NCBI GenBank assembly: GCA_903848465.1
Contig: CAINGK010000070.1
Location: 1 to 64,000 of the forward strand
Direction: 5' to 3'
From: an uncultured Verrucomicrobiota bacterium
GTDB taxonomy: Bacteria; Verrucomicrobiota; Verrucomicrobiia; Verrucomicrobiales; Verrucomicrobiaceae
DNA: 64,000 bases
Under the pieces are notes generated by a model. It was not told the DNA's origin. It worked only from the letters and a program-made list of their open reading frames with translations, and did no database searches. Position 1 is the first letter of the stretch, and each line of letters starts with the position of its first letter. Positions 2,369 through 43,437 of the stretch are shown here, piece after piece. The translations under genes were made by a program, and so were the position numbers.

Positions 2369-2683
2369 ATGCACTCTTCAAATGTTGCCGCGATCCAAGG
2401 TCTCGCCTTGCGAAGACTTGAAAAGCTTCCTTCCAACACCTTGCATTCATTGTCAGCCTGCTTGGAAGGAAAATCTCTTCATTTGAGGGCAGTGATTCAG
2501 CCTGGTCTACCGGCTTTACAACTCGACAAGCTTAACATCGTCTTATCTGTAATAGTCGAGGATCTCAAGTATGTCTTAGGCAAGCAGTGGAACGTGCGAT
2601 CTGAAAAGGTAGAAACCCCGGACTCACAAGTTCTCGAACCATTGCAGTTCGAAATCTTTAACTGCCAAAATAACACGCAATAG
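2369..2683 (+). CDS. Doubtful 104-residue ORF in the gap between the DUF1549 and DUF1501 genes
   Basis: The 343-base gap 2349-2691 is less GC-rich than its flanks and holds this single forward ORF with an ATG. The product (MHSSNVAAIQGLALRRLEKL...) has no signal peptide, membrane segment or motif I know, and no clear ribosome binding site precedes it. Partner DUF1549/1501 genes are often nearly adjacent, so the gap is unusual; it may hold regulatory sequence, a small gene or a decayed insertion. I do not recognise it. Confidence 0.2.
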   Translation: MHSSNVAAIQGLALRRLEKLPSNTLHSLSACLEGKSLHLRAVIQPGLPALQLDKLNIVLSVIVEDLKYVLGKQWNVRSEKVETPDSQVLEPLQFEIFNCQNNTQ

Positions 2684-2691
2684 TCTGAATT

Positions 2692-4038
2692 ATGCCGACC
2701 CGCCGCTCCATCCTCCAATCTACCAGCACCGGCTTTGGCTGGCTGGCGTTTAACGCGCTGCATCAGCAGTGGGCGAGTGCGGCGGCACCGCCGAAGACGA
2801 TCAATCCGCTGGCACCGAAGGTGCCGCACTTTGCGGCAAAGGCGAAGCGGGTGATTTTCATGTTCATGCAGGGCGGGCCGAGCCATCTGGACACGTTTGA
2901 TTACAAGCCGGAGCTTGCGAAAGCGGAGGCGGACAAGGTGCAGAAGTACATGGGGTCGGTGTTTGAATTTAAACCGCGCGGCAAAAGCGGCATCATGATT
3001 TCAGAGGCGTTTCCTGAGCTGGCCAAGCATGCGGATGATCTGTGCCTGCTGAACGGGATGCAGACGCGCACGAATGCGCACCAGATGGCGACGGTGGCGC
3101 TGCATATCGGCAGCGAGACGTTTGTGCGGCCTTCGATGGGGGCGTGGATCGTCTATGGTCTTGGCACGGAGGCGGAGGATCTGCCGGGCTTCGTCACCAT
3201 CAATCCCGTGGGCGACGGTGGTGCGATGAACTATGGCAGCGCCTTTTTACCCGCGTCCTTTCAAGGCACGCGCCTCGTCAGCGGTGGCGGTGGAGTACCC
3301 GACCTGAGCAACGGACGACTCAGCGATGCGCAGCAGCGCAAGCAGATCGAGTTCATTCAAAAGGCAAATCGCAAGCTGCTCAGCGGGGATCCCGGCAATC
3401 CCGAAATCGAGGGCATCATCCAGAGCTATGAACTGGCCTACAAGATGCAGACAAGCGTGCCTGAGATGCTGGATCTCGACAAAGAGCCGCAGCATATCCG
3501 TGACATGTATGGCCTCGATGAGTCAGAAACGGAGCGCTTCGGCACGCAATGTCTCATGGCGCGACGAATGGCGGAAAAGGGCGTACGCTTCATCCAGCTC
3601 GGCTCCCCCGGCTGGGATCATCATAACAACCTGCGAGAGAGTCTCGCGCGGCAGTGTACTTCCATTGACAAGCCTATTGCGGGATTGATCGCGGATCTGA
3701 AGCAGCGGGACATGCTCAAGGACACGCTCATTATCTGGGGCGGTGAATTCGGTCGTGGCAGCGGCTATGACAATGAACCGTACAATGGTCGTGGGCATAA
3801 CGGCGGCGGCTATACCATGTGGATGGCGGGTGGTGGTGTGAAAGGCGGCTTTACCTACGGCAGCACGAATGACCTGGGGAATACGGCGGAGACGGGGATC
3901 ATTGGCACGCATGATCTGCATGCAACGGTGCTGCATCTGCTGGGGATCAATCACGAGCGGCTGACGTATCGCTATGCGGGAAGAAATTTCCGGCTGACGG
4001 ATGTGAGCGGCGAGGTGGCGAAGGCGATCTTGGCGTGA
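2692..4038 (+). CDS. DUF1501 protein, Tat-exported
   Basis: DUF1501 proteins (448 residues here) are related to the alkaline phosphatase/sulfatase fold; their substrate is unknown. The N-terminus MPTRRSILQSTSTGFGWLAF is a twin-arginine signal. Family landmarks are FMQGGPSHLDTFDYKP near residue 65, a GGEFGRGSGY segment near 350, GRGHNGGG near 365, and the C-terminal GTHDLHATVLHLLGI. It follows the DUF1549/1553 gene, the standard pairing in PVC genomes; the two are thought to work on the same extracytoplasmic substrate, but this is context only. Normal length, no damage seen. Confidence 0.92.
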   Translation: MPTRRSILQSTSTGFGWLAFNALHQQWASAAAPPKTINPLAPKVPHFAAKAKRVIFMFMQGGPSHLDTFDYKPELAKAEADKVQKYMGSVFEFKPRGKSGIMISEAFPELAKHADDLCLLNGMQTRTNAHQMATVALHIGSETFVRPSMGAWIVYGLGTEAEDLPGFVTINPVGDGGAMNYGSAFLPASFQGTRLVSGGGGVPDLSNGRLSDAQQRKQIEFIQKANRKLLSGDPGNPEIEGIIQSYELAYKMQTSVPEMLDLDKEPQHIRDMYGLDESETERFGTQCLMARRMAEKGVRFIQLGSPGWDHHNNLRESLARQCTSIDKPIAGLIADLKQRDMLKDTLIIWGGEFGRGSGYDNEPYNGRGHNGGGYTMWMAGGGVKGGFTYGSTNDLGNTAETGIIGTHDLHATVLHLLGINHERLTYRYAGRNFRLTDVSGEVAKAILA

Positions 4039-12987: not shown

Positions 12988-13215
12988 TTATTTCGGCACG
13001 TCCTTCTTTTTCACCGTATAAGAACCGGGAGATTTGGCAAATTTCTGCATGCACTCGGTGCAGCAGAAGGACACAAAGCCTTCATCGGTCTTCACGCGAT
13101 AGATCGGACGCGAGGGCTTGTGGTCCACCGGGCATTCATCGTTGATGGGCCAGGCGGCGAACACGGTGGCGGTCATGGCAAGGCTGAGCAGCAGAGGAGC
13201 GAGAAGCGTTTTCAT
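12988..13215 (-). CDS. Small exported YHS/TRASH-like metal-binding protein
   Basis: 75 residues. The frame is open further upstream, but MKTLLAPLLLSLAMTATVFA is a clear signal peptide, fixing the start at 13215. The mature part has CPVDHKPSRPIYRV, then SFCCTECMQKFAKSPGSY, i.e. Cys, about 22 residues, Cys-Cys-x-x-Cys and a terminal F-x-x-x-P-x-x-Y, the YHS/TRASH layout that binds Cu, Zn or similar ions. It is upstream and divergent from the permease and His-rich genes across a repeat-filled gap, in line with a metal-handling locus. Confidence 0.78.
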   Translation of the reverse strand: MKTLLAPLLLSLAMTATVFAAWPINDECPVDHKPSRPIYRVKTDEGFVSFCCTECMQKFAKSPGSYTVKKKDVPK

Positions 13216-13404: not shown

Positions 13405-13547
13405 GTACGTTGGGTGTGTTTGGCGCGCTGCGGGGATTCAATACCCAGCGCTACTGCGCCAAACCGCCCGACTCTGGGGGAGGCACCGAGCCATGCGGCG
13501 TCTTCCCGCGCTCACAGACGGGCGGGCTGTCGCCACACCCATCCCAC
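13405..13547 (+). repeat. Dispersed three-way-junction element (family 3), copy 1
   Basis: The 614-base gap 13216-13829 has no supportable gene; 13216-13404 shows nothing else. This element recurs at 43296-43437 with identical blocks of about 28, 22 and 31 bases separated by unrelated sequence. Blocks pair: TGGGTGTG 13411-13418 with CACACCCA 13534-13541; TTTGGCGC 13419-13426 with GCGCCAAA 13456-13463; CCGCCCG 13464-13470 with CGGGCGG 13519-13525. Stems abut directly, so DNA or RNA could fold as a cloverleaf-like junction with a variable hairpin tip. Confidence 0.8.
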
Positions 13548-13651
13548 ATGCCGCCATATCCATGCATCTGCTTCGAGGCAATAGAATCGAGGACGAGGAC
13601 GATTCCGGTTAGCGGCGCGTTTTGGACCTGGGATGACGCTTGGCCCTTTGA

Positions 13652-13723
13652 CCACTCCACCACTCCACCACTCCACCGCACCACCGCACCACCGCACCAC
13701 CGCACCACCGCACCACCGCACGC
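13652..13723 (+). repeat. 8-bp tandem repeat
   Basis: Nine head-to-tail units: three CCACTCCA followed by five CCGCACCA and one CCGCACGC. The strand is nearly all C and A, giving a strong strand asymmetry. It lies about 107 bases before the permease gene. Reading frames through it produce low-complexity peptides and are not genes. Confidence 0.9.
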
Positions 13724-13829: not shown

Positions 13830-14819
13830 ATGATTTTTCTCGCCGATCTGCCCGCACCCAGCCGCATGGGGGACATCCTCATGGCCTTCCTGAGCATTGT
13901 CTTCGAAGGCGCTCCCTACATCCTCATCGGCACGATCTTTTCCGGGGTCATCGACGCCTTCCTGCCGGCCAAGCTGCTGGACCGGGTGCTGCCGAAGAAC
14001 AAGATTCTAGCGACGCTGATGGCGGGTTTCCTCGGTCTGGTGTTTCCGGTGTGCGAGTGCGCGGTGGTGCCGGTGATCCGGCGGCTAGTGCAGAAGGGGC
14101 TGCCGCTTTCCTGTGCGGTGACGTACATGCTTTCCGCGCCGATCATGAACCCCATCGTGGCGATCAGCACGCTGACGGCGTTCAAGGAGTTCCAGGGCCT
14201 ATCCTGGGCCACGGCGGGCAATGCGACGATGACCATCGCGCGTTTGTCGCTCGGCTACTTGGTGGCGGTGATCGTGGGCCTCATCGTGCTGCGCTTCAAG
14301 CCCGGCCAGGTGCTGCGGGCCAGCATCGCCAACAAGATCGCCCAGGCGGAAGCGGCGGATGCTGACGACCACGTGCATGCGCCTGCCGTCAGTTTCAATG
14401 GCAAGCTGGTGCATGCCATGCGTAGCTCCATGCGCGACTTCCTCGACACCGCGATGTATTTTGCCATCGGCGTTGTCATCACCTCCGCGTTCAACACGCA
14501 GATCAACCAGTCCCTGCTCAACGCCGTGGCGGGTAACGACTGGCTGGCCGTCCCTTCCCTGATGGGTCTGGCCATCGTACTCTCCCTGTGCAGCACCTCG
14601 GACGCCTTCATCGCCGCGCCGATGACCGCCTTCTCCATGGCGGCCAAGCTGGCCTTCCTGGTCTTCGGCCCGATGATGGACATCAAGCTGCTGTTCATGT
14701 ACTCCAGCGTCTTCCAGCGCAAGGTGGTCGTCTCTTTCCTGATCGGTCTTTTCATCCTCATCGGTCTGCTCTCTGGGCCGTGGATGAGCCTGGTCCAACA
14801 TCTCTCCATCAAACCCTAA
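13830..14819 (+). CDS. PF03773-family permease (YcgR/ArsP-like)
   Basis: A 329-residue inner-membrane permease with about eight membrane segments and a central hydrophilic, His-containing loop (ADADDHVHAP near residue 180). The family signature FPVCECAVVPVIRRLVQKGLPLS lies near residues 70-92 (a conserved Cys pair) and its internal-repeat counterpart LCSTSDAFIAA near 253. The start at 13830 follows MIFLADLP; an internal Met at residue 13 is possible. It is 6 bases before a DUF1980 gene, the standard partner of this permease. Related pairs have been linked to metal limitation or metalloid export; the His-rich partner favours a transition-metal role here. Confidence 0.88.
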   Translation: MIFLADLPAPSRMGDILMAFLSIVFEGAPYILIGTIFSGVIDAFLPAKLLDRVLPKNKILATLMAGFLGLVFPVCECAVVPVIRRLVQKGLPLSCAVTYMLSAPIMNPIVAISTLTAFKEFQGLSWATAGNATMTIARLSLGYLVAVIVGLIVLRFKPGQVLRASIANKIAQAEAADADDHVHAPAVSFNGKLVHAMRSSMRDFLDTAMYFAIGVVITSAFNTQINQSLLNAVAGNDWLAVPSLMGLAIVLSLCSTSDAFIAAPMTAFSMAAKLAFLVFGPMMDIKLLFMYSSVFQRKVVVSFLIGLFILIGLLSGPWMSLVQHLSIKP

Positions 14820-16489: not shown

Positions 16490-16558
16490 TGGAGCTTTCG
16501 TGTGCCTGGGGACGTACGAAAGCGCCGGAGGACCGGCGCACGGCAAGACGCTTTCGCG
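16490..16558. repeat. Dispersed palindromic (REP-like) element, family 1, copy 2
   Basis: Shares an identical 21-base core (16521-16541) with 371-391. GCGCCGG 16522-16528 and CCGGCGC 16533-16539 form a stem with loop AGGA; an outer arm CGAAAGCG 16517-16524 / CGCTTTCG 16549-16556 gives an alternative or extended hairpin. It sits just downstream of two convergent genes, a usual place for REP elements. Confidence 0.75.
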
Positions 16559-38412: not shown

Positions 38413-38474
38413 GTACGATGGGCACTCCTGCCCGTCGATCAGCGGCACCGCAGACACACTCGCCCTCTCCAACC

Positions 38475-41622: not shown

Positions 41623-43215
41623 ATGCACCGCTTTCTCGCTACCTTTTTATGCCTGACGAGTCTTTTGACCGCTCAATCTCCTTCGGCATCCCCTACCCCA
41701 GTGACTGCTGCGGCAGATGCTGAGAATACGTCCACCGTCGTTAAAACAGCAACCTCCACAGTTCCAACGCCCCCCATCCAGCCGCCGTTGGTGAAAGTCC
41801 CCGTTCCACCAGCGCTACCAACCGGATCTCCGCCCAACATCATCGTCATGCTCATCGATGATATGGGCTGGACCGACCTCGGTTGCTACGGCTCCAAATA
41901 TTACGAGACACCGCACATCGATCAGCTTGCAAAGGACGGCATGCGCTTCACGCAGGCGTATTCCGCATGCACGGTCTGCTCGCCCACGCGTGCGGCCATG
42001 ATGACGGGGAAATCCCCCGCCCGTTTGCACATCACCGACTGGATCGCAGGCCATGTGCCTAGCAATGGACGTCTGCTCATTCCCAATTGGACGATGCAAC
42101 TGCCGCTGGAGGAAGAAACCATTGCCGAACGCCTCAAAACACGCGGCTATGCCACCGCCAGCATTGGCAAATGGCATCTCGGCAATGAAGAATTTTATCC
42201 CACCAAGCACGGCTTCGATGTGAACATCGGTGGCACAAGCGGCGGCTCGCCACCGAGCTACTTCTCGCCTTACAAGATCGCCACCCTGCCCGATGGACCC
42301 AAGGATGAATTCCTGAGCGACCGGCTCACGGATGAAGCCGTGAAGTTCATCGACAAGCACAAGGAGAAACCGTTCTACATCTATCTCCCGCACTACGGCG
42401 TCCACACGCCAATCATGGGCAAGCCGGAAGTCATCGCCAAGTATCAGGCCAAGAAAGCTGTCGGTGGCCACAGCAATCCCGTGTATGCCGCGCTGGTGGA
42501 GAGCATCGACGACAGCGTGGGCAAACTGCGCGCCAAATTGAATGAACTGAAGCTCAGCGAAAACACCATTTTCATCTTCACCAGCGACAACGGCGGTCTC
42601 AGTCACATGGTCAATCCAAACGGCTGGTCGCGCGGCCCCACTGACAACAGCCCGGCACGACTTGGCAAAGGCAGCGCGTATGAGGGCGGCGTGCATATCC
42701 CGCTCATCGTCGCTTGGCCCGGCCTGGTGAAACCCGGCAGCACTTGCGATGTGCCCGTGATCACTTACGACCACGTCCCCACCTTGCTCGCCGCCACGCA
42801 GACACCGCTCAAGAAAGATCAAGTCGTCGATGGTGAGTCCCTGCTGCCATTGCTCGGCGGCACAGACACCCTCGCCCGTGAGGCCATCTACTGGCACTAC
42901 CCGCACTACCACCCCGGCAGCGCCACGCCCTACAGCGCCATCCGCGAAGGCGACTGGAAGCTCATTCTCTTCCATGAGGACAACCACGTCGAACTCTACA
43001 ATCTGAAACTCGACGCAGGTGAAGTGGACAACCGCGCCCCCTTTGACTCCGTACGCGCGCTGCAACTGCGCGACAAACTCATGGCCTGGCTCAAAGACAC
43101 CGGAGCCCAGATTCCCGAACGGAATCCGAAGTACGATCCTGACAAGCCGGTCAATGAGCCGAGGAAGCCTGGAGCAGGCGGGAACAACAACAAGAAGAAG
43201 GAAAGCAAAGAGTAA
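41623..43215 (+). CDS. Sulfatase (type I, formylglycine) with Pro-rich N-terminal linker
   Basis: 530 residues, exported (RFLATFLCLTSLLTAQS). A Ser/Thr/Pro-rich linker of about 45 residues (about 20-68) separates the signal from the catalytic domain. Metal motif IVMLIDDMGWTDLGCYGS near 75; modification site C119-S-P-T-R-A; IGKWHLG near 178 and TSDNGGLSH near 327. The C-terminus is rich in Lys and Asn (AGGNNNKKKESKE). The linker suggests attachment to a surface or complex. Start chosen at the signal peptide; the open frame upstream crosses the preceding sulfatase end. A palindromic operator candidate lies just upstream. Confidence 0.92.
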   Translation: MHRFLATFLCLTSLLTAQSPSASPTPVTAAADAENTSTVVKTATSTVPTPPIQPPLVKVPVPPALPTGSPPNIIVMLIDDMGWTDLGCYGSKYYETPHIDQLAKDGMRFTQAYSACTVCSPTRAAMMTGKSPARLHITDWIAGHVPSNGRLLIPNWTMQLPLEEETIAERLKTRGYATASIGKWHLGNEEFYPTKHGFDVNIGGTSGGSPPSYFSPYKIATLPDGPKDEFLSDRLTDEAVKFIDKHKEKPFYIYLPHYGVHTPIMGKPEVIAKYQAKKAVGGHSNPVYAALVESIDDSVGKLRAKLNELKLSENTIFIFTSDNGGLSHMVNPNGWSRGPTDNSPARLGKGSAYEGGVHIPLIVAWPGLVKPGSTCDVPVITYDHVPTLLAATQTPLKKDQVVDGESLLPLLGGTDTLAREAIYWHYPHYHPGSATPYSAIREGDWKLILFHEDNHVELYNLKLDAGEVDNRAPFDSVRALQLRDKLMAWLKDTGAQIPERNPKYDPDKPVNEPRKPGAGGNNNKKKESKE

Positions 43216-43256
43216 GGTGGGAAATCCAAAGCTTTCTCGGGACGTCTCTTCAGGCA

Positions 43257-43314
43257 CGTTGGGTGTGTCTGGCACGGCAGAGCACGCCTCCGACCGTACG
43301 TTGGGTGTGTTTGG
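43257..43314 (+). repeat. Partial direct repeat leading into the three-way element
   Basis: A block at 43258-43277 is repeated at 43298-43317 with two base changes, 40 bases apart, so a truncated copy of the element's left end precedes the full copy. CGGCAGAGCAC also occurs twice, at 43275-43285 and 43437-43447, bracketing the element. Confidence 0.55.
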
Positions 43315-43437
43315 CGCGCTGCGTTTGTTCATCACTGAGCCCCCCTTCGCCAAACCGCCCGACTCTGGGAAGGGCACCGAGTCATGGGCGATGCCATGCG
43401 CTGATGGACGGGCGGGCTGTCGCCACACCCATCCCAC
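43296..43437 (+). repeat. Dispersed three-way-junction element (family 3), copy 2
   Basis: Same layout as 13405-13547: TGGGTGTG 43302-43309 pairs with CACACCCA 43424-43431; TTTGGCG 43310-43316 with CGCCAAA 43348-43354; CCGCCCG 43355-43361 with CGGGCGG 43409-43415. The tips between pairs differ from the first copy, while the pairing blocks are identical. It fills the 306-base gap between a sulfatase and an oxidoreductase gene; no gene is supportable there. Confidence 0.8.

Follow-up and report, generated by a model that had tools for sequence, protein, structure and literature searches.

The repeat found twice in the window (the whole 64,000-nucleotide stretch analysed here, from an uncultured Verrucomicrobiota bacterium) consists of two inverted units of one kind, REP-A and REP-B, and is thus a REP doublet of the REPIN/BIME type. 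With a probability of about 0.93, it is a short non-autonomous mobile element, most likely moved by a RAYT (REP-associated tyrosine transposase) encoded elsewhere. A non-autonomous mobile element was one of two possibilities raised in the original prediction, and it is now supported by dozens of copies in this Prosthecobacter-like genome, by a RAYT gene flanked by the element in sister genomes and by relatives with empty sites. Each REP starts at its 5′ end with a tag, GTAG in the ancestral form, and continues as an imperfect hairpin that pairs better on the tag strand. In the proposed mechanism, a RAYT of the HUH/Y1 family would recognise the tag and the folded hairpin in single-stranded DNA, nick beside the hairpin via its tyrosine, and move or copy the doublet. 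Stems and tags would be kept because only copies recognised by the RAYT propagate, while tips and linker drift. The cleavage and transposition steps are modelled on the biochemistry of other RAYTs.

Organization of the element and its copies in the window

Read 5′ to 3′ on the + strand, the element comprises a tag (GTAC, GTAG or GGAG), the arm GTTGGGTGTGTTTGGCG, a variable tip, the arm CGCCAAACCGCCCGAC and a middle region, followed by GACGGGCGGGC-TGTC-GCCACACCCATC and a tail that corresponds to a GTAG or GTGG tag on the − strand. On the + strand, REP-A is a tagged 16-bp hairpin whose tip measures about 36 nt. REP-B, on the − strand, is a tagged 11-bp hairpin closed by a tetraloop, with a bulged T and wobbles placed as in REP-A.

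Copy 1 (13405–13547, + strand) occupies an intergenic gap. On one side is a small divergent gene that starts near 13215 on the − strand, on the other a permease-like gene at 13830 (+ strand). Its REP-A tag is GTAC (13405–13408, + strand; GTAG in most relatives) and its REP-A hairpin covers 13409–13472 (+ strand), the arm 13409–13425 pairing with 13457–13472 in a stem of 16 bp with one bulged T and two T·G wobbles, around a variable tip at 13426–13456. The REP-B hairpin lies at 13517–13543 (− strand), where it reads GATGGGTGTGGC-gaca-GCCCGCCCGTC, and its tag, GTGG in the − strand reading, at 13544–13547. Copy 2 (43296–43437, + strand) is also intergenic, and neighbours a sulfatase-like gene (ending at 43215) and an oxidoreductase-like gene. 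Its REP-A hairpin occupies 43300–43363 (+ strand; arms 43300–43316 and 43348–43363), and its REP-B hairpin, with the same core as in copy 1, occupies 43407–43433 (− strand), with the tag GTGG at 43434–43437. Ahead of copy 2, the leftover of an additional tandem copy (43254–43292, + strand) retains the REP-A left arm GCACGTTGGGTGTG and the linker CACGGCAGAGCAC; the same linker is read again in the sequence after copy 2.

The two copies had been described as sharing blocks of about 28, 22 and 31 bases, and these are indeed present: a 28-nt block (13405–13432, identical to 43296–43323), a 22-nt block, CGCCAAACCGCCCGACTCTGGG, and a terminal block of about 31 nt ending in CACACCCATCCCAC. A weaker middle block (CACCGAG.CATG) is also found in both copies. 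Between the common blocks the two sequences are unrelated.

A repeat family with conserved stems and free tips

The window's own genome (6.05 Mb in 237 contigs) contains at least 50 matches to the repeat at E ≤ 0.001 (BLAST), and the 27-nt REP-B core has 32 matches with up to three mismatches, 18 of them exact, where a reversed-pattern control gave none, an abundance well above what chance would produce; these counts from BLAST and pattern searches are lower bounds. Some own-genome copies stand in tandem arrays, and REP-B (the last 40 nt) is often found alone, at 90–97% identity. Both window copies were checked and lie between genes. Fifty-nine full copies, of which 18 belong to the own genome and the others to several further genomes, were aligned; 41 of the 59 have GTAG as left tag, and GTAC, GGAG and GTGG are common in the own genome.

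In the 18 own-genome copies, mean pairwise identity reaches 92% and 97% in the two REP-A arms and 92% in the last 27-nt unit, but only 46% for the tip and 55% for the middle region. The original prediction, according to which pairing blocks are kept and tips are free, named two findings that would count against it, namely no further copies in the genome, or tips kept rather than stems; the 50 own-genome matches and the identities over the 18 full copies go the other way in both respects.

The RAYT of sister genomes

In three sister genomes, a gene of 232–237 codons sits between arrays of the element, which flank it on both sides: L112 (genome G022, 2452–3159), L113 (G012, 2606–3316, − strand) and L114 (G001, 1982–2677). 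The encoded proteins of L113 and L114 are 78% and 71% identical to that of L112. This protein of about 236 amino acids matches Pfam Y1_Tnp above the cut-off and scores 77.2 and 78.7 bits against NCBIfam REP_Tyr_transpos (NF047646), for which the equivalog cut-off is 80. By sequence it matches PDB 4er8, a RAYT in complex with a REP hairpin (PMC8266576), at E = 7e-4, and its predicted structure (mean pLDDT 85) has the same entry as best Foldseek match (E = 1.3e-6). An HxH motif (H146, H148) and Y206 are invariant in 16 relatives, and Y206 is aligned with position 115 of the 4er8 chain (counted along the alignment); Y115 is the catalytic tyrosine of the E. coli RAYT (PMC8266576). An HUH/Y1 gene with a tyrosine at the catalytic position adjoins its REP copies in these three genomes, a situation not encountered in the own assembly. 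The RAYT of genome G020, which also adjoins a copy, was considered as cognate and rejected as belonging to another clade.

Related RAYTs of the same genus score 290–350 bits, versus 491–518 for the cognate enzymes. On one or both sides they adjoin elements that keep this plan but differ in their stems, and whose ends include GTAGGCCGGATGT, GTAGGGCGGGTGT and GTAGGTTGGGAAG among others. These elements are mostly 135–190 nt long and have 13-nt inverted ends with 0–2 mismatches; each subfamily RAYT with scanned flanks has its own type of element, bounded by matching GTAG...CTAC ends. RAYT clade and element ends co-vary. Several such elements have long tips in both REPs, an indication that the present family acquired its short REP-B secondarily.

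Copies without a detected enzyme in the own genome

In the own assembly the cognate RAYT was not found, the best RAYT scoring 180 bits against 491–518 for the cognate; more broadly, it was found in only three of ten high-copy genomes. The own-genome copies have probably been left without their RAYT, unless its gene falls into a gap of the assembly. Such a gap is plausible because several contigs of this draft (237 contigs, about 95% complete) end in repeats of the family. The full copies are old, as judged by their divergence (best pair 82.5% identical, median 68.5%), and their tags have moved to GTAC, GGAG and GTGG, where GTAG dominates in other genomes.

These features could be read as those of the same repeat, now immobile in this genome and kept for a host role such as transcription termination, mRNA 3′ protection or binding of a chromosomal protein. 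The missing enzyme is compatible with this explanation, as are copies that are old and yet have stems 92–97% identical, a state of preservation which suggests recent mobilisation or another constraint. However, the missing RAYT may simply fall in a gap, no sign of a host factor was seen, and well-kept stems are also expected after a recent stop of mobilisation, so that a host role is considered unlikely, although it is the most serious of the competing explanations. In a related and equally speculative extension, the REP doublets would have outlived their own RAYT here. Their preservation, with stems at 92–97% identity and subfamilies that differ in their tags (GTAC, GGAG, GTGG), would then be due to a second RAYT that prefers another tag, or to a host function, and REP-A with its long tip would represent a distinct RAYT substrate class.

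Two groups of own-genome genes were examined as possible movers of the element and rejected. The first is a Y1 (IS200-like) gene that encodes about 391 amino acids and exists in multiple copies, whose 11 examined loci (L038, L040, L042–L049, L051) have their own ends; its copies are very similar, with a kept upstream end ATGCCAGGCATTTAGTTGTTG, and form an element distinct from the one studied here. The second comprises seven short RAYTs (L035, L036, L037, L039, L041, L050, L053), several of which visibly lie between inverted REP-like repeats specific to them, and none between repeats of the present type.

Compensatory changes favour two separate hairpins over a three-way junction

The original prediction proposed a three-way junction in which the common blocks pair with one another, and saw in it selection on a fold rather than on a coding sequence. 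Selection on a fold is borne out, and the pairing between blocks is real; it is also wider than described, since 16 bp can additionally form between the 5′ block and the 22-nt block, and the 3′ block folds on itself. As for the junction, it can form, and on the + strand each whole copy has it as minimum-energy DNA fold. Compensatory changes, however, preserve the pairs of two separate hairpins. Over the 59 copies, 98.3% of cells are paired in the REP-A hairpin, six of its 16 pairs show changes on both sides and none of 500 shuffles was as good; in the REP-B hairpin, on the − strand, 96.5% are paired, with double changes in two pairs. The junction stems are paired in 87.1% of cells, the inner (second) stem has no double change, and the junction positions T·T (outer, column 6:153) and A·A (inner, 72:129) are unpaired in 55 and 57 of the 59 copies, respectively. 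Individual copies illustrate the point: G–C is replaced by A–T within REP-A in L006 and L019, one pair is changed within REP-B in L015 and L013, and in L065 both hairpins are changed separately, in a way that would weaken or break the junction. Joint changes do occur at two outer positions, 7:152 and 11:148, a sign that both REPs of an element may evolve in concert. The resemblance between the arms makes the junction possible; most likely it merely follows from the inverted arrangement of two similar REPs, though it may form transiently.

The two hairpins favour opposite strands. For REP-A, DNA folding energies on the tag strand versus the opposite strand are −20.6 versus −16.1 and −12.0 versus −8.9 kcal/mol, and for REP-B −7.8 versus −4.5 and −9.6 versus −5.1 kcal/mol, so that the tag strand is favoured in both copies. 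Each hairpin pairs better on the strand that carries its tag because the wobbles turn into A·C mismatches on the opposite strand; together with the matching bulged T, these imperfections confer strand specificity on the stems.

This asymmetry bears on the second possibility of the original prediction, a structured RNA, considered here as a non-coding or cis-regulatory RNA folded as a three-way junction and kept for an RNA function. As RNA, both copies give stable folds (z = −2.7 and −1.5), with the first hairpin separate in the minimum-energy fold of each, and stems kept around variable tips would suit an RNA. Nevertheless, the hairpins prefer opposite strands, a search of the window against Rfam at gathering thresholds returned no match, the junction pairs are kept less well than those of the separate hairpins, and the copies occur in tandem arrays and at unrelated loci, with arrays that flank a RAYT. 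The RNA explanation is accordingly very improbable. Descent from a conventional DDE insertion sequence, as a MITE whose terminal inverted repeats would be the outer 14-nt arms, can be set aside with similar assurance, despite inverted ends of about 14 nt (13 nt with 0–2 mismatches in relatives), high copy number and intergenic location, since the arrays enclose a gene for a Y1/HUH RAYT and not for a DDE transposase, the internal hairpins co-vary, DDE transposition acts on double-stranded DNA and would make no use of pairing that differs between strands, and no target duplication was seen, although the insertion points could not be fixed.

Relation to described REP systems

As a doublet most likely moved by a RAYT, the element belongs to a known kind of bacterial repeat. 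It shares with the REPINs of Pseudomonas fluorescens SBW25 (Bertels and Rainey 2011, PMC3116915) the inverted REP doublet, the variable spacer, the tandem clusters, a cluster adjoining its own RAYT, compensatory changes and presumed movement by the RAYT in trans (PMC3116915). It differs from them in having two dissimilar REPs (a long-tipped A and a short B) in a total of 143 nt, and in that no cognate RAYT was found in the genome of the window. Similarly, the E. coli REP/BIME and TnpA_REP system offers a tag with an imperfect, bulged hairpin that is recognised on one strand, pairs of REP and inverted REP, and an HUH tyrosine enzyme (4er8; PMC8266576), but the present enzyme has about 236 amino acids versus a 165-residue chain (17% identity in the structural alignment), and the present hairpin, unlike the E. 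coli REP, combines a 16-bp stem with a tip about 36 nt long.

A precedent within the phylum is provided by the GTAG families described from Opitutus terrae and other bacteria, which include verrucomicrobial GTAG-tagged REPs that form dimers and even show the change from GTAG to GTGG (PMC3733652). In that 2013 study of GTAG- and CGTC-tagged repeats, GTAG stems range from 5 to 13 bp and loops from 2 to 20 nt (PMC3733652); the stem (16 bp) and tip (about 36 nt) of REP-A exceed both ranges, and the doublet is asymmetric. The novelty of the element is this long-tipped REP-A, outside the described stem and loop ranges. Prosthecobacter is not mentioned in the study (PMC3733652), and a literature search found no paper naming both repetitive extragenic palindromic sequences and Prosthecobacter.

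One verrucomicrobial genus thus offers a natural series of RAYT clades and REP doublets built on a common plan, in which the stems change with the enzyme, a series useful for understanding how RAYTs read tag and hairpin. It also documents a doublet made asymmetric by the pairing of a long-tipped REP with a short one. Its element-rich genomes in which no cognate RAYT was detected are a test case for how long populations of repeats last without their enzyme.

Distribution, insertion sites and neighbouring repeats

The element is present in 17 of the 56 genomes searched. The genus contributes 16 of these, out of 35 and counting the own genome; the remaining one, from another family, has a weak match. 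The copy 2 locus is syntenic in relatives, ten of which (L188–L193, L195–L198) have no element in the gap, and one (L194) a different insertion in the gap matching the copy 2 site. The intergenic DNA is too diverged for the exact insertion point and a target duplication at copy 2 to be fixed.

The element is itself a target. An insertion sequence with ends CTGGTCTTTATACAC is found in the REP-B tip, at GGCTGTCGCC, in 15 of 15 distinct junctions (L152–L163, L007, L016, L020), in either orientation and with an apparent 10-bp duplication as deduced from junctions of different insertions. Its interior was not recovered, a search with its inner end returning the same contig ends. The own genome has 19 matches to one of its ends, at which contigs break. 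REP-targeting insertion sequences are already known (PMC1525189).

Other repeats are found in the window. The intergenic gap that holds copy 1 also contains a tandem array of 8-bp units (ACCACTCC / ACCGCACC) at 13651–13722. At 38413–38428 lies another REP-like repeat, GTACGATGGGCACTCC, whose relatives also adjoin several copies of the element (e.g. L007, L014, L029 and L049). A further palindromic repeat, with core GCGCCGGAGGACCGGCGC, is present in two copies (360–408 and 16510–16558) that are 86% identical.
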